Assembly (NCBI GenBank): GCA_020852755.1
Contig: JADZAF010000143.1
Span: 1 to 64,000 of the forward strand
Direction: 5' to 3'
Origin: Bryobacterales bacterium
Lineage (GTDB): Bacteria; Acidobacteriota; Terriglobia; Bryobacterales; Bryobacteraceae
Length of the DNA: 64,000 nt
Below are positions 1 to 59,893 of the stretch, in pieces. How positions within the stretch are numbered: the stretch's first letter is position 1; each line of letters opens with the position of its first letter. The translations under genes and the position numbers were made by a program. The notes beneath the pieces are model-generated. The model was not told where the DNA came from, ran no database searches, and saw nothing but the letters and a program-made list of their open reading frames with translations.

Positions 1-395
1 ATCAACCGGATGCCCCGTTTTGCCAAGGCGGGGTAGAGGTCGGCCAACAGGTCCCGGCGGGAGCACTTGCCGGGCTGGATGCGGACGAAACGGTCGTAGG
101 CGGCGTTGGGCGCGAGATAGTAGCCCGAGTTCTGGCCGATGGTGATCAGGTAATACCCCGCGCCCGCCGACTCCAGTTGCCGGGCGATCCCCTCCACGTC
201 GAAGCGGTCGATCAGGTCGTTCCACTTGGCCGCGCTCATTTCGAGATTGTGAGTGCGGGCCGCCCAGTCCGCCAGGTAATGGGTCATCACGCCCCAGCGG
301 GCCTCTCTCATCCAGGCAGTGCGGTCCTGCGCGCAGGCGGGCAGGAGCAGGAAGACGATCAGTAGGAGCCGGATCACATACCAGCATAACGGCAA
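1..395 (-). CDS. GH29-like (alpha-L-fucosidase family) secreted protein, N-terminal part
   Basis: The gene runs off the left edge, so only about 131 N-terminal residues are visible. I place the start at a TTG at 395 because an AAGGAGG Shine-Dalgarno sequence (407-401) sits 5 nt upstream; a GTG at 377 is the in-frame alternative. The N-terminus is a hydrophobic export signal ending in LLPAC, a possible lipoprotein cleavage box. The mature part begins with RWGVMTHY and carries a GYYLITIGQNSGYY stretch followed by YDRF, which resembles the start of the TIM barrel of alpha-L-fucosidase-like (GH29) proteins common in Acidobacteria and Planctomycetes. The catalytic residues lie outside the window, so activity cannot be judged. 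It is divergent from the operon starting at 463. Confidence 0.6.
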   Translation of the reverse strand, partial: MPLCWYVIRLLLIVFLLLPACAQDRTAWMREARWGVMTHYLADWAARTHNLEMSAAKWNDLIDRFDVEGIARQLESAGAGYYLITIGQNSGYYLAPNAAYDRFVRIQPGKCSRRDLLADLYPALAKRGIRL

Positions 396-10256: not shown

Positions 10257-10259
10257 GTT

Positions 10260-11312
10260 CTAAGGGATGATCGCGGTTTTCAGGTGCCCGTTGTGGCTCA
10301 TCAGGTGCCGCATCACGTCCAGCAGGTTGGCGAGCGGCTCTTCACGGTTCACGAAGTCGCGGGCGGTGATGTGCCCGTGGGCCACGATGTCCAGCGCCTT
10401 CCGGATATGCGCCGGGGTGTGATGGAAACTGGCCTTGCAGGTGATTTCCGAGTAGTGCAGCAGGGCCGTGTCCAGCCGTACCTCGGTGCCGTTGGGGCAT
10501 CCTCCGAAAAAGTTGACCGTGCCGCCCCGCCGCACCATGTCGGCTGCCCAGTGCCAGGTTTCCGGCTTGCCGACCGCTTCGAGAGCGATGTCGGTGCCCC
10601 GGCCTTGGGTCAATTGCCTCACCAGCGGCACCGGGTGGGGAACGGAATGCGTGGAGATCAGGTCCGTGGCGCCCATGGCTTCAGCCCGTTCCAGCTGCGT
10701 CTTGCGCCGGCCGATCGCGATCACCCGCCCGGCGCCGTAGAGCCGGGCCAGCCGCACGAACATCAGGCCGATGGGACCCAGGCCGATCACCGTCACGTTG
10801 TCGCCCGGGCGGATCCCGGTCTCTTCCAGGCCCCGCACCACGCAGGCCAGCGGCTCCACCAGGGCCGCGTCCTGATAGCTGACCCAGGCCGGAATCTCGT
10901 GCGTGTTCTTCTCGACGATGCGCGACGGAATGCGGATGTACTCGGCGTAAGCGCCGTTGTTGAACAGCAGGTCCTCGCAGAGATTCGGCACGCCGCGCCG
11001 GCAGAAGTAGCAGTCGTCGCAGGGCGCGGAGTTCGCCGCCACCACCCTCTGGCCCGGGCGGAAGCGGGTTACTCCCTCCCCAACTCCGATCACGTCGCCT
11101 GCCAGTTCATGTCCGAAGACGGCCGGAGGCACAATCATCCGGGCGTGGTATCCCCGGCGGAAGACTTTCACATCGGTGCCGCAGGTCAACGCGGCCCGGA
11201 CGCGCACGAGGAGGTCTCCCTGTCCGAACGCGGGCACGGCCACCGGCTCCACGCGCAAGTTTTCCTTGCCGTAGAGTACGGCAGCCATCATCTGGTTTGT
11301 CACTATACCCAC
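10260..11312 (-). CDS. Zinc-dependent medium-chain alcohol dehydrogenase (hopanoid operon, copy 1)
   Basis: 350 residues, the normal length for medium-chain dehydrogenases (MDR). Catalytic-zinc ligands are in ALTCGTDVKVFRRG and FGHELAGDV; the structural-zinc Cys cluster is PCDDCYFCRRGVPNLC. The Rossmann NAD(P) motif is VTVIGLGPIGLMFVRLA. It is closest in style to threonine/sorbitol dehydrogenase-like MDRs. It overlaps the second dehydrogenase gene by 10 nt and both sit between hpnG and hpnC. I infer a role in hopanoid side-chain redox chemistry, for instance reducing the ribosylhopane aldehyde form. A role in a separate sugar-alcohol pathway is possible. An MTNQMM-like internal ATG could be the true start. 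Confidence 0.85.
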   Translation of the reverse strand: MGIVTNQMMAAVLYGKENLRVEPVAVPAFGQGDLLVRVRAALTCGTDVKVFRRGYHARMIVPPAVFGHELAGDVIGVGEGVTRFRPGQRVVAANSAPCDDCYFCRRGVPNLCEDLLFNNGAYAEYIRIPSRIVEKNTHEIPAWVSYQDAALVEPLACVVRGLEETGIRPGDNVTVIGLGPIGLMFVRLARLYGAGRVIAIGRRKTQLERAEAMGATDLISTHSVPHPVPLVRQLTQGRGTDIALEAVGKPETWHWAADMVRRGGTVNFFGGCPNGTEVRLDTALLHYSEITCKASFHHTPAHIRKALDIVAHGHITARDFVNREEPLANLLDVMRHLMSHNGHLKTAIIP

Positions 11313-12400
11313 CTCTGTGGCTTAAGGATAATTTTCAACGATTGGTCGTCCGGATGCAACGCCATCTGAAACGCTGAATTGATTTTAACCAGGGGCAGCC
11401 GGTGTGAGATCAACCGTTCGACGGGTAATTCCCCGCTGAAAACCAGCTCGGCGGATTGCTTCTGCAGGTCCACCGAAGCGCTATAACAACCAAAAAGAGT
11501 CCGTTCCCCTTTGCAGATGTCGGCGCCGCAGAGTTCGATTCGCTCTTCCTCCGAAGTCTGCGAGAAGAGCAGAATCCGGGCGCCCGGCCGCGAGCAGGCG
11601 ACGGCCGCCTGCGCCAGTCCCGGGGCGGAAGCGGCGATGATCACCAGATCCGCCCCCCGGCCCTCACTCCGCCGGCGCGTTTCCGCGGGCAGATCCACTT
11701 CCGCGGGATGCCAGGCCTCCTCCGCCCCGCATTCCCGCGCCAGTTTCCTTCTCGAGGCGATGGCGTCGGTAGCCACGATCCGCGCTCCGCTGCGGGCCAC
11801 CAGCATGGTGAACAGCAGGCCGATAGGGCCCTGGCCCAGAATGGCGACCAGCTCGTCGGCGCGGGGATCGCACTCCACCACCGCCTTCAGGCAGGTGTTG
11901 ACCGGCTCCACCAGGCTGGCCCGGTCAAAGGGCACTCCCTCCGGGATCTTCTCGACGCCCCGGCGCACGATCCAGTCCATCACCCGGACATACTGGGCGA
12001 AACCCCCGCCCGCCGGCTCGAATCCGGCCGTCACCCCTACCTTCCTGTACGTGGGGCACTGGGCGTACAGCTTGCGCCGGCAATAGAAGCAGTCCAGACA
12101 GGGGACATGATGGAAGACCACCACCCGGTCGCCCGGCCGGAAGCTGTCCACTCCCGGGCCCGTGCAGACCACCACGCCGGCCGTCTCGTGGCCGTAAATG
12201 CGTGGCGGGGCCAGCAGGTTGTGTTCGATCTTCTTCAGATCCGTGTGGCAGATGCCGCAAGCTTCCACGCGCACCAGCAGCTCGCCGGGCCCCGCTTCCG
12301 GAGTCGGGACCTCTTCGACGGAAACGGCGCCCGGCCCCCGGTAAACGGCGGCCTGCATAGCTTCCGGGACCGGGAGGTCAGAATTCACAATCGGCAACAA
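11303..12400 (-). CDS. Zinc-dependent medium-chain alcohol dehydrogenase (hopanoid operon, copy 2)
   Basis: 365 residues. Catalytic-zinc motifs are EACGICHTDLKK and YGHETAGVVV; the structural-zinc Cys cluster is PCLDCFYCRRKLYAQC. The coenzyme motif is VAILGQGPIGLLFTMLVA, followed by a potential NAD-selective Asp (VATDAIASRR). It overlaps hpnG by 23 nt upstream and the other dehydrogenase by 10 nt downstream, so it is firmly inside the operon. The two dehydrogenases share fold but differ clearly in sequence, so they are not a recent duplication and may have different substrates or act as a heteromer. The substrate is unknown; context points to a C35 hopanoid intermediate. Confidence 0.87.
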   Translation of the reverse strand: MLPIVNSDLPVPEAMQAAVYRGPGAVSVEEVPTPEAGPGELLVRVEACGICHTDLKKIEHNLLAPPRIYGHETAGVVVCTGPGVDSFRPGDRVVVFHHVPCLDCFYCRRKLYAQCPTYRKVGVTAGFEPAGGGFAQYVRVMDWIVRRGVEKIPEGVPFDRASLVEPVNTCLKAVVECDPRADELVAILGQGPIGLLFTMLVARSGARIVATDAIASRRKLARECGAEEAWHPAEVDLPAETRRRSEGRGADLVIIAASAPGLAQAAVACSRPGARILLFSQTSEEERIELCGADICKGERTLFGCYSASVDLQKQSAELVFSGELPVERLISHRLPLVKINSAFQMALHPDDQSLKIILKPQRWV

Positions 12401-13091
12401 ATCCTCCTAATGTTCGCGCGGCCAAACGGCTTCTTCGGGCCAGTTGCGCCAGTTCAAACACGGCCGGGCGCCGGCGGAGCAGCGCGTCCTTCAAGATGGC
12501 GGCGCGGCTCAGGCGTCCCTCGGGCGTGCGCGCGCCATTGAGATCGATTCCGAAACTCTCCCCGGCCAGGTCCGTGACCGCCCGGACACAATAAAGCGGG
12601 AGGCCCAGCGCAGCCGCCCGCTGCGCCACTCCCGCCGCTTCCATCTCCACCGCCCGGGCGCCGGCCAGGCGCAGCAACCGCTTCTCCTCCCGGGTTTGCG
12701 CTACCCGGTCCACCGAGGCCAGCGGGCCCGACGCGAATGCGCGGCTCACCCTCGGCATGGGCAGCGCCATGTCCCGGCCGTCCGCTTTCAGCTCCGTTGC
12801 CACGAAAATCTCTCCTGCCCGCAGCGCCGGGTCCAGAGCGCCGCAGTACCCCAGGCTTACCACCGCCCGGACCGGCGCCCGCGCGGCTGCGCAGTCCACC
12901 GCCTCGGCCGCCAGCATCCGGCCCGCGCCGTTCGCCACCAGTACTACTGGGACGCCCCGGAGCTCTCCGCTCCGCGCCCAATCCAACGGCCACCGCAGCC
13001 GGCGCATGCCCCCGACCCTCGGCGCCAGGCCCGCAAACTCGCCCGCTTCGGCCGCCACGAACAGCACGGGCCTGCTTGCTTGATCGCTCAA
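12378..13091 (-). CDS. hpnG: Adenosylhopane nucleosidase/phosphorylase HpnG
   Basis: 237 residues, PNP/UDP phosphorylase superfamily. Visible family features are the Gly-rich GYCGALDPALRAGEIFVA, the nucleoside-binding VEMEAAGVAQRAA and the active-site region RAVTDLAGESFGIDLNG. HpnG removes adenine from adenosylhopane to give ribosylhopane, the second step of C35 hopanoid side-chain formation after HpnH. It overlaps hpnA by 4 nt and the next dehydrogenase gene by 23 nt. Confidence 0.9.
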   Translation of the reverse strand: MSDQASRPVLFVAAEAGEFAGLAPRVGGMRRLRWPLDWARSGELRGVPVVLVANGAGRMLAAEAVDCAAARAPVRAVVSLGYCGALDPALRAGEIFVATELKADGRDMALPMPRVSRAFASGPLASVDRVAQTREEKRLLRLAGARAVEMEAAGVAQRAAALGLPLYCVRAVTDLAGESFGIDLNGARTPEGRLSRAAILKDALLRRRPAVFELAQLARRSRLAARTLGGFVADCEF

Positions 13092-14062
13092 CAGTATCCG
13101 TTTCCCCGGAACCAGTCCACCGCGCGCCGGATGGCGCCGTCAACCGGTCTGGGATCGTACCCCAGCTCCCGGGCCGCCTTCTGATGCGAGACAAACATCT
13201 TCTTCCGTGCCATGCGCACGGCTTCCAATGGCGCCCTGGGTTCGTTTCCCGTCCAACCCGCCCAGGCCGTTGTCACCACACCCACGGCGTAGGCCAGCCC
13301 GTACGGAATGCGCACCGCGGGCGCGTTCAGGCCGGCCGCCGCCGCCACCCGCCGCAGAATCTCGGCAAGAAGCAGGTTTTCGCATCCCAATATATACCTT
13401 TCGCCAGGCCGCCCGCGCTCGCAGGCCAGCAGATGTCCCCGGGCCGTATCCTCGACGTCCACCAGGTTCAGTCCCGTGTCCACGTAGGCGGGCATTCTGC
13501 CCTTCAGCACATCCAGGAGGATCTTCCCGGTAGGCGTGGGCTTGAAGTCGTGATCGCCGACGGGCGCCGTCGGGTTGACGATGGTCACGGGCAGCCCGGC
13601 CGCGGCGTACTCCAGGGCCACCTGCTCGGCCTGGAACTTCGACCGCTTGTAGTCGCCCGCCATGTCGCCCTGGGTCACCGGAGTGTTTTCGTCGCCGGGA
13701 CCGTCTTCGGGAATGCCGATGCACCCGACCGTGCTGGTGTACACGATGCGCTCGACCCCCGCCGCCCGGCAGGCCTCCAGCAGGTTGCGTGTGCCCTCCA
13801 CGTTGGAACGGTAGATTTCCGAGGGATCCCTGGCCCACAGCCGGTAGTCGGCCGCCACGTGATAGACCGTGTCGCAGCCGGCCGCCGCGCGGTCCAGAGA
13901 CTCGCGCTCGCGCAAGTCGCCCGTGACAGCCTCCGCCTCGAGTTCTCTCAGGCGGCTGCCCGGCCTCACCAGGGCCCGCACGCGCCGCCCGCTCCCTTCG
14001 AGCAGGCGCGCCACGTGCCAGCCGACGAAGCCGGTTGCTCCGGTCACCAGGACGGGTTTCAT
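13088..14062 (-). CDS. hpnA: Hopanoid-associated NAD-dependent sugar epimerase HpnA
   Basis: 324 residues, extended short-chain dehydrogenase. The N-terminal dinucleotide motif TGATGFVGWHVA (7-18) and the catalytic Tyr138 and Lys142 (DYKRSK) are present, along with YTSTVG for the catalytic Ser/Thr. HpnA is conserved in hopanoid loci and is thought to act on a sugar group attached to the hopanoid, but its reaction is not settled. It overlaps hpnG by 4 nt and is separated from hpnH by 46 nt, the largest gap in the operon. Confidence 0.9.
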   Translation of the reverse strand: MKPVLVTGATGFVGWHVARLLEGSGRRVRALVRPGSRLRELEAEAVTGDLRERESLDRAAAGCDTVYHVAADYRLWARDPSEIYRSNVEGTRNLLEACRAAGVERIVYTSTVGCIGIPEDGPGDENTPVTQGDMAGDYKRSKFQAEQVALEYAAAGLPVTIVNPTAPVGDHDFKPTPTGKILLDVLKGRMPAYVDTGLNLVDVEDTARGHLLACERGRPGERYILGCENLLLAEILRRVAAAAGLNAPAVRIPYGLAYAVGVVTTAWAGWTGNEPRAPLEAVRMARKKMFVSHQKAARELGYDPRPVDGAIRRAVDWFRGNGYC

Positions 14063-14108
14063 GGCTCCCGGTGCTCACCTCCGGGCCGTTTTGCGGAAGA
14101 TGCTTCGC

Positions 14109-15233
14109 CTATCGCAGCACCCACGTCAGCATCCTGAAGTTGTCGGTGAACTTGGAGTTGATGCCCAGCGCCGCGGAGGGTTCGAAGCCGCAATGCACCA
14201 TGCAGTGCTCGCAGCGCGGGTCGTTGCCGTGGCCGTAACTCTCCCAGGGCGTCTGGGTCATGAGTTCCTCGAAGGTTCTGTAGTGGGCGTCGGTGATCAG
14301 GTAGCAGGGACCCTTCCACCCTTTCACATTGTAAGTGGGGTTGCCCCAGGCGGTGCAGGGAAGCTCGCGCTCCCCCTTGAGGAAATCGAGGTAGACCGGT
14401 GTCTGGTTGATGGGGAAGCGCCGCGCCAGCCGGTCGATGTCCGCGAACTTTTCGTGGATGTCCTCGCGGGTCATGAAGATCTCGCGGTCATCCACCGCCG
14501 AGTACCCGTAGGCCGGCGCGATCTGGTGGCCATCCACGTGAAACGGTTCGAGATATTCGAACAGCGCTTCGACTTCCTTCATGTCCGTCTCCCGGTAGAC
14601 GGTAGTGTTGGTGCAGACCTTGAAACCGGCCGCTTTCGCCGCCTTCAAGCCTTCCATCGCTTCCCGGAAAACGCCCTCCCGTTCCACGGCCAGGTCGTGC
14701 GTCTTCTCCAGTCCGTCCAGGTGGATGTTGAAGAAGAAGCGCGGATCGGGCTGGAACTCGCCCAAACGCTTCCGGATGAACATGCCGTTGGTGCAGAGGT
14801 AGATGTGGCGGTCCAGATTCAGGATTCCGCGCACCAGTTCGCCGATCTGCGGATACATCATCGGCTCGCCCCCGCAGATGGAAACGATGGGCGCGCCGCA
14901 CTCCTCCACCGCCGCCAGGCATTCGGCCACCGGCACCCGCTCCGTGATGCTGTCCTCGTACTCGCGGATGCGGCCGCAGCCCGTGCAGGTCAGGTTGCAG
15001 GCGTGCAGCGGCTCGAGCATCAGCACGATGGGGAAACGCTTGCGGATCATGGGATGCGGCTGCCGGCGCCGGGCCTCCCCGTTGATCTCGCCTCCCCCGC
15101 CGGACAGGATGCGGAACGGGTTGGAGGAGCCGTTCCCGGGCTTCGGGTCGGCCTGCCACTGCTCCGGCGGCCGTTTCTTGTTCCGGTAGATGTAACGCGC
15201 CAGACCGGCTGTCATGGCAAGCGGGAATCTCAT
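14109..15233 (-). CDS. hpnH: Radical SAM adenosylhopane synthase HpnH
   Basis: 374 residues, the usual length for HpnH. The radical-SAM cluster motif CNLTCTGC gives C79, C83 and C86; ICGGEPMMYPQI is the SAM-binding GGE motif. C-terminal cysteines (GNDPRCEHCMVHCGFEP) match the HpnH C-terminal signature. It adds the 5'-deoxyadenosyl group of SAM to diploptene, giving adenosylhopane. The start overlaps the shc stop by 4 nt. Confidence 0.95.
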   Translation of the reverse strand: MRFPLAMTAGLARYIYRNKKRPPEQWQADPKPGNGSSNPFRILSGGGGEINGEARRRQPHPMIRKRFPIVLMLEPLHACNLTCTGCGRIREYEDSITERVPVAECLAAVEECGAPIVSICGGEPMMYPQIGELVRGILNLDRHIYLCTNGMFIRKRLGEFQPDPRFFFNIHLDGLEKTHDLAVEREGVFREAMEGLKAAKAAGFKVCTNTTVYRETDMKEVEALFEYLEPFHVDGHQIAPAYGYSAVDDREIFMTREDIHEKFADIDRLARRFPINQTPVYLDFLKGERELPCTAWGNPTYNVKGWKGPCYLITDAHYRTFEELMTQTPWESYGHGNDPRCEHCMVHCGFEPSAALGINSKFTDNFRMLTWVLR

Positions 15234-17191
15234 AGGCGTTCCTCGGTCAGTAAAGCGGTTTCGCGGATCCGGACGCCGTCCGCGGCCCGGGCGTACGAAG
15301 CCAGGGCCAGCAGCGGGAAATACTGCCGGTACAGGTGATACGTCAGGTAGAAAACCTTGGGAAAGCCGGTGCCGGTGGCGGCCTCCTCGTGCCAGGAACC
15401 ATCCGGCCGCTGGCTCCGCAACAGGTACTCGATCCCCTTGCGAACGCTCAGGCTGGATTCGTCGCCGCCCGCCACCAGGCCGAGCAGCGCCCAGGCCGTC
15501 TGGGAGGGGGTGCTGGCGGCGGCGGTAAAGGTTCCGTTGTCATAGCTGGCGCAGCTTTCGCCCCAGCCGCCGTCGGCGTTTTGTACCGCCCGCAGCCACT
15601 CGCCGGCGCGCAGAATATGGGCCTCGCACGGATCCTCGCCCGAGGCACGCAGGCCGCGCAGCGCGAAGCAGGTGCCGTACAGGTAGTTCACACCCCAGCG
15701 GCCGTACCAGCTGCCATCCGGCTCCTGGCTGCGGACCAGGAACTCGACGCCCCGGCGCACGGCCGGGTGGTCGGAGGCGATGCCGCTGGCGGCCAGGGCT
15801 TCCAGCACCCGGCCGGTGATGTCCGGGCAGGTCGGGTCCAGCATGGCATTGTGATCGGCGAAGGGAACGTGGCTGAGGATCTCCCGGTTATTGTCCGCGT
15901 CGAAGGCCGCCCACCCGCCGTCTTCCGATTGCATGCTCAGCAGCCAGTTCAGCGCCCGCCGCGCGGCCGCATCCTGCGCCCCTGCGTTGCCGGCGCGGCA
16001 GTGCCGCAGAGCCAGCAGGATCATGGCGGTGTCGTCGATGTCCGGATAAAACTCGTTTGCGAACTCGAAATACCAGCCGGAAGGCTCGGTGTTGGGGCGC
16101 TTGATGCTCCAGTCGCCCTTGCGGCGCACTTCCTTGGAGAGAATCCAGTCCGCCGCCCGCTCAAGCGCCCCGGCGGGCGCCGCCCCCGATTGTCCCAGCG
16201 CGTAGGCCGCAATTCCGGTGTCCCACAGGGGCGAGAAGCAGGGCTGGAAGTAAAGGCTCTCTCCCTCCCGCACCATCAGGCGCTCGAACTGCGCAACGGC
16301 TTCCACGAAATCGGGATGATCGCGCCGGTAGCCCAGCACGTCCAGCGCCATGATGATGTACATCATCGGCGGATAGATCGCTCCCAGCCCGTCGGAATAG
16401 CGCGTGCGGTCCAGCATCCAGGATTCGGCCGCGCGGATGGCGCGGCGCCGAACCGCCTTCACCCCGTACCGTTCCCACAGGCGCAGCAGGCGGTCCAGGC
16501 CCAGGAAGAAGCTTCGCCAGGAGACCATGCCGTCGCCCGGCTTGCGGAACCCAAGGCTGCGGCCGGGCAGGAACAGCTCCTGGAGGGTGAAGCCGGCAGG
16601 AGCCGGCCGGCGCCCGCCCGAACCCTGCACGATCGAGAGCGGAACCACAATGGCCCGGGTCCACGAAGACATCTCGTAAACCAGGTTGCCGAGCAGCATC
16701 AGTTCCGGCGGCACCCGGGGAACGTGGGCCCTGGGATACAGGTCGAACAGGCTCAGGTTGATCTTGACGTAGCTGTTGGCCGCCTGGATGCCGCCCAGCG
16801 CCAGAATACGCTCGCGCGCCCTGGCCAGGCGCGGGTCGTCCGGACTGAGGCCGGCCAGCTTCAGCGCAAAATAGGCTTTGACGCTGGCGCTGATTTCGGC
16901 CGGGCCGTGGGGGTAGATGTTGAAGCCGCCGTCGGGCAGCTGCCGCGCCAGAATGGACTTGGCGGCCAGGTCGATCAGGGGCCGCGAGGGCGGATTCCAT
17001 CTCCCGCCGGCGGGAGGATGGAGCCACAACTGCAACAGGATGTAGTCCGACTCCAGGGTCGTGTCGGCCGATAGCCGGGCGCACCAGTAGCCCTGGGTAT
17101 GCTGTTCCCTCAGCAGAAGGTCCGCCGCGCGGCGCACCGCCTGTGAAACTGAACTTCCCGGGGCGTCGCTCGTTTCCAGGCCGGGGCTCAT
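15230..17191 (-). CDS. shc: Squalene-hopene cyclase
   Basis: 653 residues, typical of bacterial SHC (about 630-720). The DXDD protonation motif is DIDDTA (D384, D386, D387; D386 should be the proton donor). Several QW repeats are visible, for example QEPDGSWYGRWG, QNADGGWGES and QRPDGSWHE, which form the alpha/alpha barrels. It cyclises squalene to hopene/hopanol at the inner membrane. It overlaps ispH by 4 nt and hpnH by 4 nt. Confidence 0.97.
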   Translation of the reverse strand: MSPGLETSDAPGSSVSQAVRRAADLLLREQHTQGYWCARLSADTTLESDYILLQLWLHPPAGGRWNPPSRPLIDLAAKSILARQLPDGGFNIYPHGPAEISASVKAYFALKLAGLSPDDPRLARARERILALGGIQAANSYVKINLSLFDLYPRAHVPRVPPELMLLGNLVYEMSSWTRAIVVPLSIVQGSGGRRPAPAGFTLQELFLPGRSLGFRKPGDGMVSWRSFFLGLDRLLRLWERYGVKAVRRRAIRAAESWMLDRTRYSDGLGAIYPPMMYIIMALDVLGYRRDHPDFVEAVAQFERLMVREGESLYFQPCFSPLWDTGIAAYALGQSGAAPAGALERAADWILSKEVRRKGDWSIKRPNTEPSGWYFEFANEFYPDIDDTAMILLALRHCRAGNAGAQDAAARRALNWLLSMQSEDGGWAAFDADNNREILSHVPFADHNAMLDPTCPDITGRVLEALAASGIASDHPAVRRGVEFLVRSQEPDGSWYGRWGVNYLYGTCFALRGLRASGEDPCEAHILRAGEWLRAVQNADGGWGESCASYDNGTFTAAASTPSQTAWALLGLVAGGDESSLSVRKGIEYLLRSQRPDGSWHEEAATGTGFPKVFYLTYHLYRQYFPLLALASYARAADGVRIRETALLTEERL

Positions 17192-18183
17192 CGCGCGGAG
17201 ATGATTCTCAGCTGAGCGGCCGGCTGGCTCAACTCGTTGGGGAGGGAGAAGCGGACGTCTTCATCCACCAGTTCCAGCTCCTCCACCGTTTGGAATCCGC
17301 ACTCCCGCAGCCAGTTCACCAGGCTTTGCACCAGGTGCTCCGGGGCCGAAGCTCCGGCAGTGACCGCGGCGTTATTGACCCCCGCGAGCCAGGCCGGATC
17401 CACGTGGGCCGCATCATCCACCAGGTACGAGGCCACGCCCGCGTTCTGTGCGACTTCGACCAGGCGCTTGGAGTTCGAACTGTTCTGGGAACCGACCACC
17501 AGCAACAGCTCGCAGAACAAGGCCACCGCTTTCACCGCCATCTGCCGGTTTTCCGTGGCATAGCAGATGTCCTGGGCGGGCGGGCCCTGGATGGACGGGA
17601 AACGTTCTCTCAGGCGCGCCACGATGTGGCTGGTTTCATCGAGGCTGAGAGTGGTTTGCGTGAGAAAAGATACTTTTTCCGCGTCGGGAACCTGAAGAGC
17701 GTCCACTTCCTCCACGCTGGAAACCAGGAAAGTGCGCTCCGGCGCTTCGCCCAAAGTGCCGACCACCTCGTCGTGGTCCTTGTGCCCGATCAGCACGATG
17801 CTGTATCCCATGCGGGCAAACCGGCTGGCCTCCAGGTGAACCTTGGTGACCAGGGGGCAGGTGGCATCGATCACCTGCAGTCGCCGCTTGCGGGCTTCAT
17901 GACGCACGCTCGGCGCCACCCCGTGGGCGCTGAATATCGCCCGCGCGCCTTCCGGGATCTCGCCCACTTCCTCCACGAAAACCGCGCCCGCCTGCCGCAA
18001 TCTCTCCACTACGTGTTTGTTATGAACAATCTCTTTCCGCACGTAAATGGGCGGCCCGTAAAGTTCCAGCGCGATTTCCACGACGTCGATCGCGCGCACC
18101 ACTCCCGCACAAAAGCCGCGGGGTTTGAGCAGAAGAATCTTCTTTCCGCCGCCATTAGAAGCGGCCAACGGCTTAAGGGGCAT
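17188..18183 (-). CDS. ispH: 4-hydroxy-3-methylbut-2-enyl diphosphate reductase IspH (LytB)
   Basis: 331 residues. The three conserved cysteines binding the [4Fe-4S] cluster are C25 (PRGFCAGV), C109 (DATCPLV) and C207 (DICYATENRQ). The substrate-binding motif VGSQNSSNSKRL is intact. IspH makes isopentenyl and dimethylallyl diphosphate in the last step of the MEP pathway. Its place at the head of the operon couples isoprenoid supply to hopanoid synthesis. It is preceded by an extended -10 promoter about 30 nt upstream. Confidence 0.97.
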   Translation of the reverse strand: MPLKPLAASNGGGKKILLLKPRGFCAGVVRAIDVVEIALELYGPPIYVRKEIVHNKHVVERLRQAGAVFVEEVGEIPEGARAIFSAHGVAPSVRHEARKRRLQVIDATCPLVTKVHLEASRFARMGYSIVLIGHKDHDEVVGTLGEAPERTFLVSSVEEVDALQVPDAEKVSFLTQTTLSLDETSHIVARLRERFPSIQGPPAQDICYATENRQMAVKAVALFCELLLVVGSQNSSNSKRLVEVAQNAGVASYLVDDAAHVDPAWLAGVNNAAVTAGASAPEHLVQSLVNWLRECGFQTVEELELVDEDVRFSLPNELSQPAAQLRIISAR

Positions 18184-52642: not shown

Positions 52643-54040
52643 TCAGTTGTAGAACTCCCGCCGGTGCTGTTCGGCGTAGGCTTGCATCCGCGCGGCGATC
52701 TCGGGAAAGCGGCGGATCACGTTGACGGTCTCGAACGGGTCGGCCTCCATGTCGAACAGGGACAGTTCGATGCGCTCCTGCCGGTACTTTCCGGCCATGC
52801 CATCCCTGCCCGGCGCCGCCACCACCCGGTAGGCATGCGGCAGGTGCAGCTTCCAGCGGCCGTCCGCGCTGATCACGCCCTCGAAGTTCGCGCCTGTGGA
52901 GAAGGGATAGTAGTCGTGCGGGTTGACCGCGCCCGGCCTGGCGGAAATCAGGTCCCATACGTTCTTTCCGTCGATCGGATTCTTCGGCAAGGGCGCGCCC
53001 GCCAGGTGGGCCAGGGTGGGCAGCAGGTCGACGGTGGAGAAGGTCCGCCTGGAGAAGGAGCCGGCGGGGATGCGGCCGGGATAGCGCATGATGCAGGGGC
53101 TGCGCGTGCCGCCGTCGAAGCCGGTGCCCTTGGCCTCCCGGTAGATGGTTTTGCCGGCGTGGTTGCCATAGGAAGTCCAGGGTCCGTTATCGGAGGTGAA
53201 GATGACGAGGGTGTTGTCTTCCAGGCCCGAAGATTTCAGCGTCTTCAGGATCTCGCCCACGGACCAGTCGATCTCCATGATGACGTCCCCGTAGAGACCG
53301 GTCCCGGACTTTCCTTTGAACCTTTGGCTGCAGAACAGCGGCACGTGCGGCATGGAGTGCGGCAGGTACAGCAGGAACGGGCCGGCCTTGCTGCGGCGGA
53401 TGAAGTCCACGGCGTGCTCGGTATACCAGGTGGTCAGCATGGGCTGGTGTTCCCGGGTGACGCGCTCGATTTTGATGCGCCCCTGATCCCAGAACTGGAG
53501 CGGATACTGGCGGTAGTTCCGCGGGTGCTCCGGGTGGAACTCCCACATGTCGTTGGAGTACATGAGCCCGCAGGACTCGTCGAATCCGCGTGCCGGGGGA
53601 CGCGTATCGGGCTGATCGCCGATGTGCCATTTTCCGAAGACAGCAGTGCGATAGCCGGCGGCCTTGAGGGTCTGGCCCATGGTGGCGAACGCGGGCTCGA
53701 GGCCCCGGGCCCGGGGACCGTGCGCGCCGAACACCCGGGTTCTGCCCGGATAGCACCCGCTGAGCAGCGCGGAGCGAGAGGCGGAACAGACCGCCTGCGG
53801 CACATAGAAGTTGGTGAACGAGCAGCCCCCGGAGGCCAGGCGGGCGACGTTGGGCGTGGGATAGTCCGGCTTGCCGAAAGGACGGAAATCGGACCAGCCG
53901 GCGTCGTCGAGAAAGATGATGACGAAATTAGGCCGGCGGGGCGCGCCTTTGGCGAGGCCGGCCAGCCCCAGGCCGGCTGCCGCCAGGCCGGCGCGTAGAA
54001 ACTCCCTGCGGTCCGGAGGATTGTGCGTCATGAGCGGCAT
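52643..54040 (-). CDS. Tat-exported sulfatase
   Basis: 465 residues from the ATG at 54040; an ATG three codons later is an alternative. PDRREFLRAGLAAAGLGLAG is a Tat signal. The alkaline-phosphatase-fold motifs are FVIIFLDDAGWSD (metal ligands) and CSASR (85-89), in which C85 becomes formylglycine; Ala replaces the usual Pro in CxPxR. GKWHIGDQP and FTSDNGPW are further sulfatase hallmarks. It removes sulfate from glycans or other esters. No maturase gene (FGE or anSME) is in the window. The gene is divergent from the Gfo/Idh/MocA gene across 70 bp. Confidence 0.93.
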   Translation of the reverse strand: MPLMTHNPPDRREFLRAGLAAAGLGLAGLAKGAPRRPNFVIIFLDDAGWSDFRPFGKPDYPTPNVARLASGGCSFTNFYVPQAVCSASRSALLSGCYPGRTRVFGAHGPRARGLEPAFATMGQTLKAAGYRTAVFGKWHIGDQPDTRPPARGFDESCGLMYSNDMWEFHPEHPRNYRQYPLQFWDQGRIKIERVTREHQPMLTTWYTEHAVDFIRRSKAGPFLLYLPHSMPHVPLFCSQRFKGKSGTGLYGDVIMEIDWSVGEILKTLKSSGLEDNTLVIFTSDNGPWTSYGNHAGKTIYREAKGTGFDGGTRSPCIMRYPGRIPAGSFSRRTFSTVDLLPTLAHLAGAPLPKNPIDGKNVWDLISARPGAVNPHDYYPFSTGANFEGVISADGRWKLHLPHAYRVVAAPGRDGMAGKYRQERIELSLFDMEADPFETVNVIRRFPEIAARMQAYAEQHRREFYN

Positions 54041-54052
54041 TGTATCTCGCGC

Positions 54053-54082
54053 TTGAAGACCGAGGGAGAGGCAGAGTACGAT
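54053..54082 (+). promoter_or_regulatory. Candidate promoter of the Gfo/Idh/MocA gene
   Basis: TTGAAG (54053-54058) and TACGAT (54077-54082) are separated by 18 bp, giving a leader of about 22 nt before the ATG at 54111. The Shine-Dalgarno AGGAGG lies within that leader. Confidence 0.35.
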
Positions 54083-54110
54083 CAGGAGCGTAGATCAGGA
54101 GGTCCGCAAC

Positions 54111-55340
54111 ATGGCCAAGAGCACCCGCCGTTCCTTTCTGGGAAGCGCGGCAGCCGCTTCCGCGCTGTCCCCGCGCGTTTCCGGCCAGGTGATTCCCGGA
54201 TTCGACCAGACGCGCACGGAGGTGGACAAGACCCGGACCTGGCAGCCGTTCAGCGACCGCAGAATCCGCATGGGGCTGGTCGGCTACGGCGTCTGCAGGT
54301 TTGCGGCGGAATTCGAATTCCAGAACCACCCGAATGTCGAGGTGGCGGGGGTGAGCGACCTGTTCCCGGACCGCTGCGCGGCGCTGGCCAAGCGGGTGAA
54401 GTGCTCGAACACCTACCCGTCGCTCGAGGAGATGGTGAAAGACGACCGCATCGAGGCGATCTTCGTCGCCACCGACGCGCCTTCGCACGCCAGGCACTGC
54501 ATTCTGGCGCTCGATCACGGCAAGCACGTCTGCACGGCCGTCCCGGCTTTTCGCGGCGACATCGAAGATGCGGAGCGGCTGCTGGAGTGCGTAAAGAAGA
54601 ATCGCGGGCTGGTCTACGCGATGCTGGAGACCTCCGTTTTCCATGACGACCTTTACGCCATGGAGAAGCTGTACGCCGCGAACGTTTTTGGAGAAGTGGT
54701 GTACTGCGAGGGCGAGTACTGCCATCCGCACACTTTGGGCGCGCCGGCGCTGGACTCCTACAAAGACTGGCGCAAGAAAGGGGCGCCCATGTGGTATCCG
54801 ACGCATGCGACGGCGTACTACGTGGGCGTGACGCACGACAGCCTGGTGGAGGTGAGCTGTCTGGGAACCGCGCCGTTCGACAAGTCGAGGCGGCGTCCCA
54901 ACAGTATCGGCAATATCTTCAACTCGGAGGTGGGCATCTTCCGGACCCGCAGGGGCGGGTTGTGCCGGATCATCATCTGCGGCTCGCAGGGCGAGTACCT
55001 GGAAGCCGGGCGGCTGCGCGGCGAGTATGCGGGGTACGACTGGCATAACGGGCGGTCGGAGGGCTTCGTGGGAGACGCGGAGGGCAAGCGGAGGCTGGCG
55101 GAGGCCGCAGGGAGGGGGCTGCGGACGAAGAAGTACGCGCTGCCGCCGGGTGTTTCACCGGGCGGGCACGGCGGCTCGCACGGCTACCTGGGAGACGATT
55201 TCGTGGACGCCATCCTGCGGAAGCGGAAACCGGCGGTGGACGTGATTGACGCGTTGAACATGACGGTTCCCGGCTACTACGCCCATCTTTCCGCCATGAA
55301 GGGCGGGGAGACGATGAAGATCCCCCAGTATTCGTTGTAG
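54111..55340 (+). CDS. Tat-exported Gfo/Idh/MocA-family oxidoreductase
   Basis: 409 residues, with AGGAGG 9 nt before the ATG. STRRSFLGSAAAASALSPRVSG is a Tat signal. The Rossmann motif is MGLVGYGVCRFAAEFEFQ and the typical EMVKDDRIEAIFVATDAPSHARHC, DHGKHVCTAVPA block follows; the Lys of the usual EKP is replaced (TAVPA). Periplasmic members such as Zymomonas glucose-fructose oxidoreductase keep a tightly bound NADP. I infer a similar periplasmic sugar oxidation or epimerisation. It is 96 nt before the GalB-like gene in the same direction. Confidence 0.88.
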   Translation: MAKSTRRSFLGSAAAASALSPRVSGQVIPGFDQTRTEVDKTRTWQPFSDRRIRMGLVGYGVCRFAAEFEFQNHPNVEVAGVSDLFPDRCAALAKRVKCSNTYPSLEEMVKDDRIEAIFVATDAPSHARHCILALDHGKHVCTAVPAFRGDIEDAERLLECVKKNRGLVYAMLETSVFHDDLYAMEKLYAANVFGEVVYCEGEYCHPHTLGAPALDSYKDWRKKGAPMWYPTHATAYYVGVTHDSLVEVSCLGTAPFDKSRRRPNSIGNIFNSEVGIFRTRRGGLCRIIICGSQGEYLEAGRLRGEYAGYDWHNGRSEGFVGDAEGKRRLAEAAGRGLRTKKYALPPGVSPGGHGGSHGYLGDDFVDAILRKRKPAVDVIDALNMTVPGYYAHLSAMKGGETMKIPQYSL

Positions 55341-55436
55341 GAAAGCCGGCGTTGATCGCGGCCCGTCGTGCAGGGCCTGCCCGGCTTGACAGGGAGTTCG
55401 CGGGCGTGCAGAGATGTGCGGCGGGAGGAAAACAGA

Positions 55437-56207
55437 ATGCAACGACGCGAGTTTGTCGCCGGCGCCTGGCTGGCCGCGGGCATTCCGGCAGGCGGGCTTC
55501 GCATGCAGGCCGCGGCTGCCGCCCCGGCGCCCGCAAGGGTGCTGGCGGTCAGCGCGCACCCCGCGGATTTCTGTTCGCGGGCCGGGGGAACCCTCATCAA
55601 GCACGTGCGCGCGGGCGCCAGGGCCAAGGTGATCTGGCTGACCCAGGGCGAGTCGGACGAGAGCGCCTTCCTGATCCGCCAGCGGCCCGGCATCTCCGTG
55701 GACGAAGTCCGGCGCATCCGCGAGAAGGAGGCCTTCGCCTGCGCGGAAGTGATCGGGGCGGAGGGCAGGATGTTCGGGTTCGGCGACGGTCCGCTGCGGA
55801 TGACGCCGGAGCGCATGGAGTTGCTGGCGCGGGAGATCGCCGATTTCAAACCCAGCCTGATTCTCACGCACTGGAAGGACGAACTCACTTATCCGACCCA
55901 CTGGCGGACCGCGGTGAGCGTGATTGAAGCGGCCCAGATGGCGCGCGCCTCCTGGGACATACGCTTTTTCGAACCGAACCTGGGAACGGCCTCGCGGGTC
56001 GGATTCGTTCCGGACCATTACGTGGATATCGGGGAAGTGTTCGAACGCAAGATCGAGGCGCTGAAGACGCTGGCCGCGCAGCCGGCCCTGGTTCCCAATT
56101 ACACGGTCTGCAACCGCTGGCGGGGACTGGAGTGCGGGCGGCAGTATGCCGAGGCGTTCGTGCGGTGGGCCCCCAAGCCGCCGGTACACGACCTGCTGGG
56201 CGGATAG
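55437..56207 (+). CDS. Tat-exported PIG-L superfamily protein, GalB-like hydratase
   Basis: 256 residues from the ATG at 55437, with GGAGG upstream. QRREFVAGAWLAAGIPAGG is a Tat signal. The PIG-L metal motif reads AHPADFCSRAGG instead of the deacetylase HPDD, so the Asp used as general base by MshB-type deacetylases is missing while the metal-ligand Asp is kept. The second motif is LTHWKDELTYPTHWR. The pattern of HxADF, RAGG and GDGPLR resembles 4-oxalomesaconate hydratase GalB of gallate degradation. I therefore infer hydratase or related activity more than deacetylation; this is moderate confidence. Confidence 0.7.
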   Translation: MQRREFVAGAWLAAGIPAGGLRMQAAAAAPAPARVLAVSAHPADFCSRAGGTLIKHVRAGARAKVIWLTQGESDESAFLIRQRPGISVDEVRRIREKEAFACAEVIGAEGRMFGFGDGPLRMTPERMELLAREIADFKPSLILTHWKDELTYPTHWRTAVSVIEAAQMARASWDIRFFEPNLGTASRVGFVPDHYVDIGEVFERKIEALKTLAAQPALVPNYTVCNRWRGLECGRQYAEAFVRWAPKPPVHDLLGG

Positions 56208-56222
56208 GACCGCACGGCCGTC

Positions 56223-56236
56223 GCGCCCCGGGGCGC
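56223..56236. terminator. 14-bp palindrome between convergent genes
   Basis: GCGCCCCGGGGCGC lies in the 38-bp gap between the converging GalB-like and smc genes. It could act as a bidirectional terminator, but it lacks a loop and T-tract. Confidence 0.3.
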
Positions 56237-56245
56237 CCGCCCCGT

Positions 56246-59200
56246 CTACGCCACGGCCTCGGAGCGCTGGTCCGGCGCGGGCATCTGGAAGCGAACCGAA
56301 ACCAGCTTGGAGACGCCGGGTTCCTGCATGGTCACGCCGTAGAGGGTCTGGGCGGCCTCCATGGTCTTCTTCGAGTGGGTGATGATGATGAACTGGGTGG
56401 TCCTGGACATCTCCTTGAGCAGCCGCATGAGGCGATCGATGTTGGCTTCGTCCAGAGGAGCGTCCACCTCGTCGAGAATGCAGAACGGGCTGGGCTGGTA
56501 GCGGAAGATGGCCATCAGCAGGGCCAGGGCCGTGAGGGCCTTCTCGCCGCCGGAAAGCAGCAGCACGTTCTGCAGGCGTTTGCCCGGGGGTGAGGCGACG
56601 ACGTCGATACCCGATTCGGCGGCGTTCGACTCGTCGGTAAGCCGCATCTCGCCGACGCCGCCTCCGAAGAGGGTGCGGAAGGCCTCGCGGAAGTTGGCGT
56701 TGACGGCCTCGAAGGCCTCGTTGAATTTCTGCCGGGATACCTGGTCGATGTCCTGGATGGCCTTCTCGGTGTCGCGGATGGAATCGAGCAGGTCCTGGCG
56801 CTGGGTGTTGAGGAAATCGTAGCGCTGCTGGGTTTCCTGGTATTCCTCCAGGGCCTGCGGATTGACCGGTCCGAGGTTGTCGATCCTGGTCTTGATTTCC
56901 TGGTACTGGCGCTCGACTTCGGCCAGGCCCCCGGCGTCCAGGACGGTCTCCTCGCCGGCGGCCAGTTCCGCCACCGGGCAGTTCAGCTCCTTCTGGCTGG
57001 TCTCATCCAGGAACTTGAGCTCGGCCTGGCGCTTCACCAGCTCGACTTCCACCTGGGAGCGTTTCTCCCGGGCCTCTTCGAGCAGCGCGCGCAGCCGTTT
57101 CAGATCCTCCTCGCCCTCGGCCAGCGTGGCGCGCAGCTGCAGTTCGTCCTCGGCCATGCGGTTCACGCGGTCTTCGGTCTCGATCAACCGGCCGGCCAGC
57201 AGGGTGGCTTTGCTGTCCAGTTCGATGTTGTCGGACAGCAGCCGGGCCCGTTCGACTCCCAGCTGCTGGATCTCGGAGGCGAGCTGCTCGCGGCGCGCGG
57301 TGCGCTCGCGGAAGTTGTTCTCGACGCGGCTCATGGCGCCGCGGACCGAGCGCTGCCGCTCCTCGAGTCCGGCCAGCTCCACGCGGAGGGCGGCATGTTC
57401 TTCGGCTGCCCGGGCGGTTTCGGCCTCCAGGTCGTCCAGGTCCTGCCGCTCGGCTTCCAGCTTCTGCTCCTGCTCGAGCCGCAAGCGGTCCTTCTCTTCC
57501 ACCGCCGCCGCGTTGCGCTCCCGCTGCGCGATGGACCGCTCCGCCTCCTGCCGCAACCGCTCCAGGTCGACGCGGGCGACGGAGAGACGGGAGTTGGCCC
57601 GCGCGGTTTCTTCGGCCGCCTTGCGGACTTCGTGCTCCAGGGCCAGGGCTTCCTTCTCCTGGGACTGCTGGGCGGCGCGCAGCCTCTCCAGGGAAGCCTC
57701 CAGGGCGGCAATCTGGCGGTCCAATGACGCCAGCCGCGCCACCTCTTCGTCCAACTGGCGCTGCTTGGTTTTCAATCCCGCCGAGAGTTCACGCAGCTCG
57801 CGCTTGAGAGCCAGGGGGCCGCTACCCGTCTTCTTGCCTCCGCTGACCGCGTAGCCGTGATAGCAGATGCCGTCCTTGAGGAGGAAGTAGAAGTGGGGAT
57901 ATTGCACCGCCAGGCTCTGGGCGGCAGTGCGGTCCTCGGCGATGAAGCAGGCGGCCAGGCGCGGCAGGAGATCGCGCGCGCAGTCCTTCAAGCCGTTGGT
58001 CAGGCGGAGACAGTCGCTCAGCCGGCCGACGATTCCCGTCTCGGGACCGAGCACCGGTTCGGCCGCTCCGGCGGCCTGCTCGGGGTGGACCATGAAGGTG
58101 GCCCGCCCGTCCAGGTCGGAGCGCATCAGGTCGATGCCGCTCTCGGCCTGCTGCCAGCTCGGGACCACGACGTATTCCAGTTCCTCGTGCAGAAACTCCT
58201 CGGCCGCCTTTTCGTAAGCCGGGTCCACTTCCACGAAGTCGGCCAGCACGCCCATGGGCCGGAACTCGCCGGTCTGTCCCTGCTCGATGGCGCCGAACAG
58301 CTTCTTGACCGACTCGGTGGTATAGGCCCGGTGGGAGAGGATCTCCTCGAGCGAGTCGCGGCGCGCCTTCAACTGGGAGGTCTCGGCGCGAAGCTGGTCG
58401 ATGGCCCTGCGTCCCTCGGCCGCCTGGCCCTTCGAAAGGGCCAGCTCTTCCTCCACGCGGCGCCGCTCGCCGGTCACGGTCTCCAGTTCCATCTGGCGCC
58501 GGGCGGTGGCTTCGGAGAGCTGCTCGCGGATCGCAGCCAGCCGCTCCAGGTCGGCGGCAGCCGCCTGTTCCTCCTTGTTGACACGCGCGGATTCGCGCTC
58601 CAGGCCCACCAGGAACTCGTCCACCTGGGCTAACTGGTTCTTGAGCGTGGACGCCTCGCCCAGCAGCCGCAGCACCTGCCGCCTGCCGGATTCGATGGCC
58701 TCTTCCCGCTGGCGCAGGCGGGCTTGCAGCACCTCGCGCGCTTCGTTTTTCTCGACTGCCCGCCGGCGGGCCGACGAAATGCGACCTTCCAGTTCCTCCA
58801 CCTGGCCGCGGTGCGCTTCGAGTTCCGATTCGAGCTGTGCGAGGCGGGCGGCCGACTGGGCCAGTTCTTCCTCGCCCTGCCCGATCCGCTGCTCGATGGC
58901 CCCGATCTGCCGTGCCTGGTACTCGAGCTTGCCGCGGGTGCGCTCGGCCTCCACGTTGAGCTCGGCCAGCTGCTTGCGAGTCTCGGTGAGGCGCGCCTCG
59001 GTCTGGTAGCAGGCGGTCTGAAGGCGCTGCTGTTCCTGCTCGTTCCGGGCCACCCGGTCGGCCAGATTGCGCAGCTCCGTGGAAGCGGCGCTGAGGTCCA
59101 GGGCCGCCTTGGCGGCTTCCCGCTCCAGATAAAGGTAGCGGCTTTTCAGCAAGATGCGCAGCCGGCCGTCGAGTTCGGCCTTCAATTCGGTGAAGCGCCG

Positions 59201-59893
59201 GGCCTTGGCGGCCTGGCGCTTCAGCGAATTCACCTGGCGAGTCACCTCCTCGAGAATGTCGAAAACGCGGGCCAGGTTCTGCTTGGCGCTTTCCAGCTTG
59301 GCTTCGGCCAGCTTGCGCCGGGTCTTATACTTGGTGATTCCGGCGGCTTCCTCGATGATGGAGCGGCGGTCCTGGGGCTTGGAGCTGAGGATCTGCCCGA
59401 TGCGGCCCTGCTCGATGATGGCGTAGCTTTCCGGGCCGAGGCCGGTTCCCATGAACAGGTCCTGGATGTCGCGCAGGCGGGCGATCCGGCCGTTGATCAG
59501 GTATTCGCTCTCACTGGAACGGAACAGGCGGCGGGTGATGGTGATCTCGCCGGGTTTCAACCCGTCCTTGGAGTGGCCGTTCATGCCGGCGAGCCGCCCG
59601 GCGTCGTGGATCTCCTGGTAGACGGCCGGATCCACCAGTGTCATCGTCACCGACGCCATCCCCAGGGGTTTCCGGTCCTTGGTGCCGACGAAGATGACGT
59701 CCTCCATGCGGGCGCCGCGGAGGCTCTTGGCGGACTGTTCGCCGAGAACCCAGCTGATGGCGTCGCTGAGGTTGGACTTGCCGCAGCCGTTGGGACCGAC
59801 CACGGCGGCGATTCCCCCGCCGTTAAACCGCAGTTCGGTTCTGTCACAAAAGGACTTAAACCCTTGGAGTTCAACGCGCTTCAGTTTGAGCAA
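56246..59893 (-). CDS. smc: Chromosome segregation protein SMC
   Basis: 1215 residues from a TTG at 59893, with GAGGTG 7 nt upstream. Walker A GPNGCGKS (33-40) and the start MLKLKRVELQGFKSF are canonical. Long coiled coils flank a hinge (about 500-650). The C-terminal head has the signature LLSGGEKALTALALLMAIF and Walker B PFCILDEVDAPLDEAN. SMC compacts and aligns the chromosome with ScpAB, which are not in this window. Confidence 0.97.
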   Translation of the reverse strand: MLKLKRVELQGFKSFCDRTELRFNGGGIAAVVGPNGCGKSNLSDAISWVLGEQSAKSLRGARMEDVIFVGTKDRKPLGMASVTMTLVDPAVYQEIHDAGRLAGMNGHSKDGLKPGEITITRRLFRSSESEYLINGRIARLRDIQDLFMGTGLGPESYAIIEQGRIGQILSSKPQDRRSIIEEAAGITKYKTRRKLAEAKLESAKQNLARVFDILEEVTRQVNSLKRQAAKARRFTELKAELDGRLRILLKSRYLYLEREAAKAALDLSAASTELRNLADRVARNEQEQQRLQTACYQTEARLTETRKQLAELNVEAERTRGKLEYQARQIGAIEQRIGQGEEELAQSAARLAQLESELEAHRGQVEELEGRISSARRRAVEKNEAREVLQARLRQREEAIESGRRQVLRLLGEASTLKNQLAQVDEFLVGLERESARVNKEEQAAAADLERLAAIREQLSEATARRQMELETVTGERRRVEEELALSKGQAAEGRRAIDQLRAETSQLKARRDSLEEILSHRAYTTESVKKLFGAIEQGQTGEFRPMGVLADFVEVDPAYEKAAEEFLHEELEYVVVPSWQQAESGIDLMRSDLDGRATFMVHPEQAAGAAEPVLGPETGIVGRLSDCLRLTNGLKDCARDLLPRLAACFIAEDRTAAQSLAVQYPHFYFLLKDGICYHGYAVSGGKKTGSGPLALKRELRELSAGLKTKQRQLDEEVARLASLDRQIAALEASLERLRAAQQSQEKEALALEHEVRKAAEETARANSRLSVARVDLERLRQEAERSIAQRERNAAAVEEKDRLRLEQEQKLEAERQDLDDLEAETARAAEEHAALRVELAGLEERQRSVRGAMSRVENNFRERTARREQLASEIQQLGVERARLLSDNIELDSKATLLAGRLIETEDRVNRMAEDELQLRATLAEGEEDLKRLRALLEEAREKRSQVEVELVKRQAELKFLDETSQKELNCPVAELAAGEETVLDAGGLAEVERQYQEIKTRIDNLGPVNPQALEEYQETQQRYDFLNTQRQDLLDSIRDTEKAIQDIDQVSRQKFNEAFEAVNANFREAFRTLFGGGVGEMRLTDESNAAESGIDVVASPPGKRLQNVLLLSGGEKALTALALLMAIFRYQPSPFCILDEVDAPLDEANIDRLMRLLKEMSRTTQFIIITHSKKTMEAAQTLYGVTMQEPGVSKLVSVRFQMPAPDQRSEAVA

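Follow-up and report, generated by a model that had tools for sequence, protein, structure and literature searches.

In the N-deacetylases of the PIG-L/LmbE superfamily, an HXD1D2 motif is paired with a further histidine, D1 acts as the base or, as proposed for BshB, as an acid, and the passages of the review that describe the LmbE-like enzymes treat them as hydrolases (PMC4101496). A PIG-L protein encoded within a 64,000-nucleotide stretch of DNA from a Bryobacterales bacterium (contig JADZAF010000143.1; hereafter the window) has HPAD in place of HPDD, and we asked whether such a protein is still an amide hydrolase or has become a hydratase akin to GalB. The original prediction, made from the DNA letters, had suggested a secreted GalB-like hydratase that may act on an oxidised sugar or an aromatic acid. 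By GalB we mean the 4-oxalomesaconate (4-carboxy-2-hydroxymuconate) hydratase of P. putida KT2440 (PDB 5cgz; Mazurkewich et al. 2016, J Biol Chem 291:7669).

The reading frame of the window gene is real (Table 1). It opens with an ATG that is immediately preceded by GGGAGGAAAACAGA, a purine-rich ribosome-binding sequence, and closes with a TAG stop at 56205-56207. A scan of positions 53900-56350 returned no promoter-like sites and two terminator-like sites, compared with 1.8 in shuffled sequences. The protein scored 70.2 bits with the Pfam PIG-L model (cut-off 28.2), which places it in the superfamily, and neither NCBIfam nor Pfam offered a family nearer than PIG-L; its only NCBIfam matches were the BshB1, BshB2 and Mca models (deacetylase/amidase), all far under cut-off. 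In the motif SAHPADFCSRAGG, the first aspartate of HPDD is replaced by Ala43 and the metal-ligand aspartate is kept as Asp44, as had been noticed at the outset. The sequence also contains GESDES, GDGPLR, YPTHW, FFEPN and RAGG. Two of these had been read as reminders of GalB, and 5cgz indeed has stretches that match RAGG and GDGPLR, namely HSADFVWRAGG and GDYPMR. The N-terminus, MQRREFVAGAWLAAG, looks by eye like a Tat signal.

Table 1. Positions in the window of the PIG-L gene, its active-site places and its flanking genes.
Feature	Position	Strand	Basis
PIG-L (PF02585) protein, GalB clade, 256 aa, HPAD motif, Tat-like leader	55437..56207	+	ORF call, Pfam, tree, residue count
His41-Pro-Ala43-Asp44: zinc-ligand places His41 and Asp44; Ala43 at the deacetylase base Asp place	55557..55568	+	alignment; roles from passages of PMC4101496
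Glu75 at the GalB Glu-48 place	55659..55661	+	alignment
Tyr152-Pro-Thr154-His155: His155 at the third zinc-ligand place; Tyr and Thr at the MshB His144 and Asp146 places	55890..55901	+	
Asn181 at the GalB His-164 place, not conserved	55977..55979	+	alignment
Gfo/Idh/MocA oxidoreductase (PF01408), Tat-like leader, ends 96 bp upstream of the PIG-L gene	54111..55340	+	
Sulfatase, CSASR, Tat-like leader, divergent from the Gfo gene	52643..54040	-	
Long gene, SMC-like by eye, downstream and opposite in direction to the PIG-L gene	56246-59893	-	

By sequence, profile and fold, GalB is the nearest solved relative of the window protein. The best sequence match in the PDB was 5cgz (E 1.5e-19), followed by the deacetylase 2ixd (E 8.1e-5), and a profile built from five relatives widened the gap (3.6e-47 for 5cgz and 2.2e-14 for the next entry). 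The AlphaFold2 model of the protein, made with eight sequences, had a mean pLDDT of 81.0 in its best version, with the four others lying between 64.4 and 72.9 and the leader below 50. When this model was searched with Foldseek, 5cgz was the top match (E 6.5e-17, TM 0.77/0.82). VIA-align likewise ranked 5cgz (Z 29.9) over 2ixd (Z 26.1), although the deacetylase folds came nearly as high (Z 25-26) and the rmsd was larger for the 5cgz alignment (4.7 vs 2.6).

The genome that contains the window has 15 PIG-L matches, among which the window protein and the proteins from contigs C114 (72%) and C128 (45%) are mutually close. We counted active-site residues in an alignment of 60 PIG-L rows, 28 belonging to a clade that contains GalB and 32 lying outside it. 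The clade rows are made up of 17 GalB rows, six rows of the window type and five of the C128 type, two of the last being the same gene, so that 27 genes are represented. The metal-ligand places of the H-x-x-D motif and the later histidine (His41, Asp44 and His155) are kept in all 60 rows. At the place of the general base, every one of the 28 clade rows carries Ala, Gly or Met, and the window type has Ala or Gly in six of six; in GalB, too, this place is reportedly Ala according to Mazurkewich et al. (2016). The alanine of the window protein is thus more than chance, but taken alone it is weak evidence. We rejected the exchange as sufficient proof of a non-deacetylase, because the base Asp is also missing from nine of the 32 rows outside the clade, all nine keeping the His that stands three positions ahead of the zinc His, and from five of the 15 matches in the same genome.

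The two groups are separated by a double loss. The base Asp and the histidine three residues before the zinc His (the MshB His144 place) are both missing from 28/28 clade rows and from 0/32 others; taken singly, this histidine is replaced in every clade row and absent from three rows outside. The Glu-48 place of GalB, the second Glu of GExxE, is Glu throughout the clade and in none of the 32 other rows, in a region where the alignment is gappy. For GalB numbering, the residue numbers 5..244 of the 240-residue chain in 5cgz fit chain position + 4. Glu-48 has been proposed to activate the metal water in GalB, and its equivalent here is Glu75; His-164, the proposed catalytic acid of GalB, corresponds to Asn181. 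The latter place is His in 16 of 17 GalB rows, Asn or Thr in all six window-type rows, and Thr or Ser in all five C128-type rows. Immediately before the zinc His, GalB has Asn-x-Asp-His (17/17), which the C128 type keeps, whereas the window type has Tyr-x-Thr/Ser-His-Trp (6/6). The His and Asp of the deacetylases (MshB His144 and Asp146) are therefore replaced in the window type by Tyr and by Thr or Ser, respectively, in six rows of six. In MshB, a change of either residue to Ala left 1% or less of the activity, which is ascribed to substrate recognition in the relevant passages of the review (PMC4101496). Tyr152 and Trp156 are invariant in the six window-type rows, in which Glu75 and the zinc-ligand places are also kept. 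To judge from these residues, the window type has lost the deacetylase site, has kept the proposed water-activating Glu of GalB, and has replaced the proposed GalB acid.

The 60 rows were also used for a tree. They comprised 11 of the 15 matches from the same genome, relatives from the same phylum, orthologs from MAGs, GalB-type proteins from plasmids and Acidobacteriota, and three solved proteins, including 2ixd and 8bgn (MshB is not a row). The solved GalB supplies one of the 17 GalB-labelled rows, two more carry the name galB in their records, and the remainder were labelled by kinship and neighbors; the G017 ortholog, which is split over two contigs, and a frameshifted copy on L058 were left out. 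The GalB, window-type and C128-type rows formed one clade with a support of 100/99, apart from the deacetylases. Within it, the window type is a branch of its own (100/100), and a closer union of GalB with the C128 type reached only 95/73. After the removal of 32 motif columns and five long-branch rows, the split of 28 versus 27 rows was retained at 96/91. Forcing the window type together with seven BshB-type rows, a grouping picked once the first tree was in view, was rejected (p-AU 0.000395). The original prediction had named phylogeny as one of its tests, and the grouping with deacetylases that would speak against it did not occur; its central claim of a link to GalB rather than to deacetylases is supported by tree, profile, fold and residues. 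A second PIG-L group without the base Asp (HPGD, HAGD, HCGD or HAAD), in which the HPDH-type His is kept, branches apart from GalB in the same tree; its members are L007 (contig C353 of the same genome), L025, L027, L030, L032 and L036. The base Asp is also missing, as a separate case, from L029 and L043 (HPGD).

Window-type proteins look rare. Among the window's own genome (G000) and 60 relatives, two of 61 genomes have them (G000 and G017), and among 399 genomes drawn from the class the count is three (G000, G432 and G462; matches above 280 bits, with the C128 type left out). Only G000 was found among 297 genomes drawn from the phylum. The type also occurs in a groundwater Acidobacteria MAG and in a Poribacteria MAG, where it lies on a 4.1-kb contig and misbinning is possible. 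A Tat-like leader was recognized by eye at six of the eight window-type loci and is absent from L054 and L057, a pattern that fits the predicted export of the protein.

The genes around GalB set it apart from the window type. We examined the loci of 13 of the 17 GalB rows; all 13 have a CHA aldolase within 2 kb, and a LigB-type match, a VOC-type dioxygenase and a PrpF-type tautomerase each occur near four of them. No CHA aldolase was found within 8 kb, or as far as the contig end, at any of the eight window-type or four C128-type loci, four of the window-type contigs being 3-4 kb long. A search of the window's genome limited to LigB and PrpF, at E 0.001, returned no match, and the 14 RraA-like matches in this genome include none by the window gene. 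On these grounds a gallate pathway in this organism was set aside, and an aromatic acid, one of the two substrates suggested at the outset, became less likely. Three plasmid proteins encoded beside CHA aldolases (L075, L076 and L081) are GalB-type in the tree, yet their records read 'PIG-L deacetylase family protein'.

As had been predicted, the window gene follows the gene of an oxidoreductase that begins, by eye, with a Tat-like signal. This Gfo/Idh/MocA protein reads GKHVCTAVPA where the two solved relatives shown read GKHV..EKP, so that the usual Lys is missing. Despite the missing Lys, an 87% identical homolog is present in G033 (contig C7; L117:6127-7374), a member, like G484, of the same family as the window's genome. 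Six genomes were searched, and four of them have relatives at E 1e-30 or better. No PIG-L gene is among those called in the 19 kb surrounding the 87% copy, and contig C7 gave no match to the window PIG-L protein at E 1e-10. A conserved Gfo-PIG-L operon was accordingly rejected; the partnership with the Gfo gene is not conserved and is weak evidence of function.

We surveyed the neighbors at eight window-type loci on nine contigs of six genomes (two loci each in the window's genome and G462, one each in G017, G432, L054 and L057). An enolase-superfamily gene lies directly beside the window-type gene at three of the eight (C114, G017 and L057); the G017 and L057 enolases are 71% identical and have galactonate dehydratase as their nearest NCBIfam model, below cut-off. 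Other direct neighbors were seen at a single locus each: the Gfo/Idh/MocA gene in the window, an MDR-type dehydrogenase at L054 (by eye), and a CehA/McbA-family protein at L055 (over cut-off). The L058 ortholog is preceded by a DgaE-family relative (152 bits, below cut-off) akin to D-glucosaminate-6-phosphate ammonia-lyase, and L097 begins 473 bp upstream of the window-type frame and shows no neighbor. Sulfatases occur within 2.5 kb at two loci, the window and C114. The link to enolases is loose, and some of the adjacency may be due to chance because the family is large in the window's genome, where a search with the L057 enolase gave 40 matches at E 1e-40 or better in 7.4 Mb; an 81% relative of that enolase is on contig C223, which holds none of the 15 PIG-L matches. 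Since the neighbors are mixed, no pathway can be deduced from them. The suggested oxidised-sugar substrate fits some neighbors, in particular the enolases at three of eight loci, two of them nearest to acid-sugar dehydratases, but the Gfo protein is neither a conserved partner nor equipped with the usual Lys.

Two further observations concern these contigs. A hopanoid-like cluster recognized by eye (squalene-hopene cyclase and HpnA-, HpnG- and IspH-like genes) occupies positions 9348-18183 of the window contig, and a cluster with a similar gene order is found at L057:10410-16663, where the PIG-L ortholog lies some 2 kb away. In the Terriglobia MAG contig L058, the window-type gene (1663-2567) is split between two frames, through either a true frameshift or an assembly error.

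We infer that the window protein is probably a zinc-type metalloenzyme of the GalB branch that is exported and functions as a hydratase, or as a dehydratase in the reverse direction, rather than as an N-deacetylase. In the proposed mechanism, His41, Asp44 and His155 would hold the metal, Glu75 would position and activate the metal-bound water, and the water would add across a C=C bond in conjugation with a carbonyl group, with Tyr152, three residues before the zinc His, as the candidate proton donor. The GalB mechanism cannot be transferred as a whole, because His-164 is absent from all six window-type rows. The substrate would differ from 4-oxalomesaconate and is more probably a small enone or 2-oxo-3-enoic acid that derives from a sugar and is encountered in the periplasm. 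Acid-sugar dehydratases and glucosaminate lyases produce 2-keto-3-deoxy sugar acids; these are 4-hydroxy-2-oxo acids, like the product of GalB, and we therefore lean toward such compounds. More tentatively, the window type might be an exported hydratase family of its own that split off from the GalB branch and left aromatic catabolism. With its rebuilt site (Glu75, Tyr152-x-Thr-His-Trp and no His-164), it might serve the periplasmic hydration or dehydration of sugar-derived 2-oxo-3-enoic acids or 3-keto-glycals together with acid-sugar dehydratases and sulfatases.

The comparison with known enzymes bears on how far other functions should be considered. The window type resembles GalB in clade, fold, the Ala at the base place, the Glu-48 equivalent, the zinc-ligand places, and the RxGG and GDxP motifs, and these likenesses, with 5cgz as the nearest solved structure, could suggest a true 4-oxalomesaconate hydratase of gallate or protocatechuate breakdown. 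We regard this as very improbable, as the window type differs from GalB in the lost His-164 (Asn/Thr in 6/6 rows vs His in 16/17), in the exchange of Asn to Tyr and of Asp to Thr/Ser ahead of the zinc His, in its Tat-like leader, and in the missing aldolase (0/8 loci vs 13/13); its own genome gave no match in the search limited to LigB and PrpF, and one genome carries two window-type copies and one C128-type copy. Several catalytic places of both GalB and the deacetylases have changed, and the protein could also be a non-catalytic descendant of GalB which binds a metal or a ligand. The retention of the zinc-ligand places and Glu75 and the invariance of Tyr152 and Trp156 in six of six rows suggest instead a working enzyme with a rebuilt site, and make a non-catalytic role quite improbable.

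With the N-deacetylases (BshB 2ixd, Dac 8bgn and MshB 1q74), the window protein shares the fold and the H-x-x-D and His places. It might thus be an amide hydrolase, such as a deacetylase that acts on N-acetylated sugar acids or on sulfated amino sugars, with Glu75 serving as the base in place of the lost Asp, and the sulfatases near two loci and the DgaE-family relative before the L058 ortholog are compatible with the use of amino sugars. This function appears unlikely given that the base is lost along with both the His and the Asp that precede the zinc His, and given the kinship with GalB, from which the 2ixd and 8bgn rows are separate in the tree and which the p-AU value supports. In the GalB study, the return of Asp to GalB reportedly gave no hydrolase activity.

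Hydration of a sugar enone in a route with a Gfo/Idh/MocA enzyme has precedents among proteins of another family. These are LgdB2, in levoglucosan use (PMC7676230), and AtHYD, a result its source calls preliminary (PMC10628242). Their chemistry is like that proposed here, but both are annotated as sugar phosphate isomerases/epimerases, whereas the window protein is a PIG-L protein. Putative periplasmic 3-keto-sugar hydrolases belong to another family, DUF1080, and the passages that present them do not mention PIG-L (PMC9007349). The GalB paper is cited in passages of PMC5065237. Within the titles and abstract openings searched, a scope that excludes most subscription journals, the literature told of no PIG-L hydratase.

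PIG-L proteins are often named deacetylases, including those in plasmid records beside CHA aldolases. Should the window type prove to be a hydratase outside gallate breakdown, PIG-L proteins that have lost both the base Asp and the preceding His could be re-annotated from sequence, and if it is indeed a separate exported family, the PIG-L fold would gain a second hydratase reaction. The hydratase assignment, if true, would also provide a candidate water-adding step for the periplasmic sugar chemistry of Acidobacteriota, in a genome with large enolase and RraA-like families.
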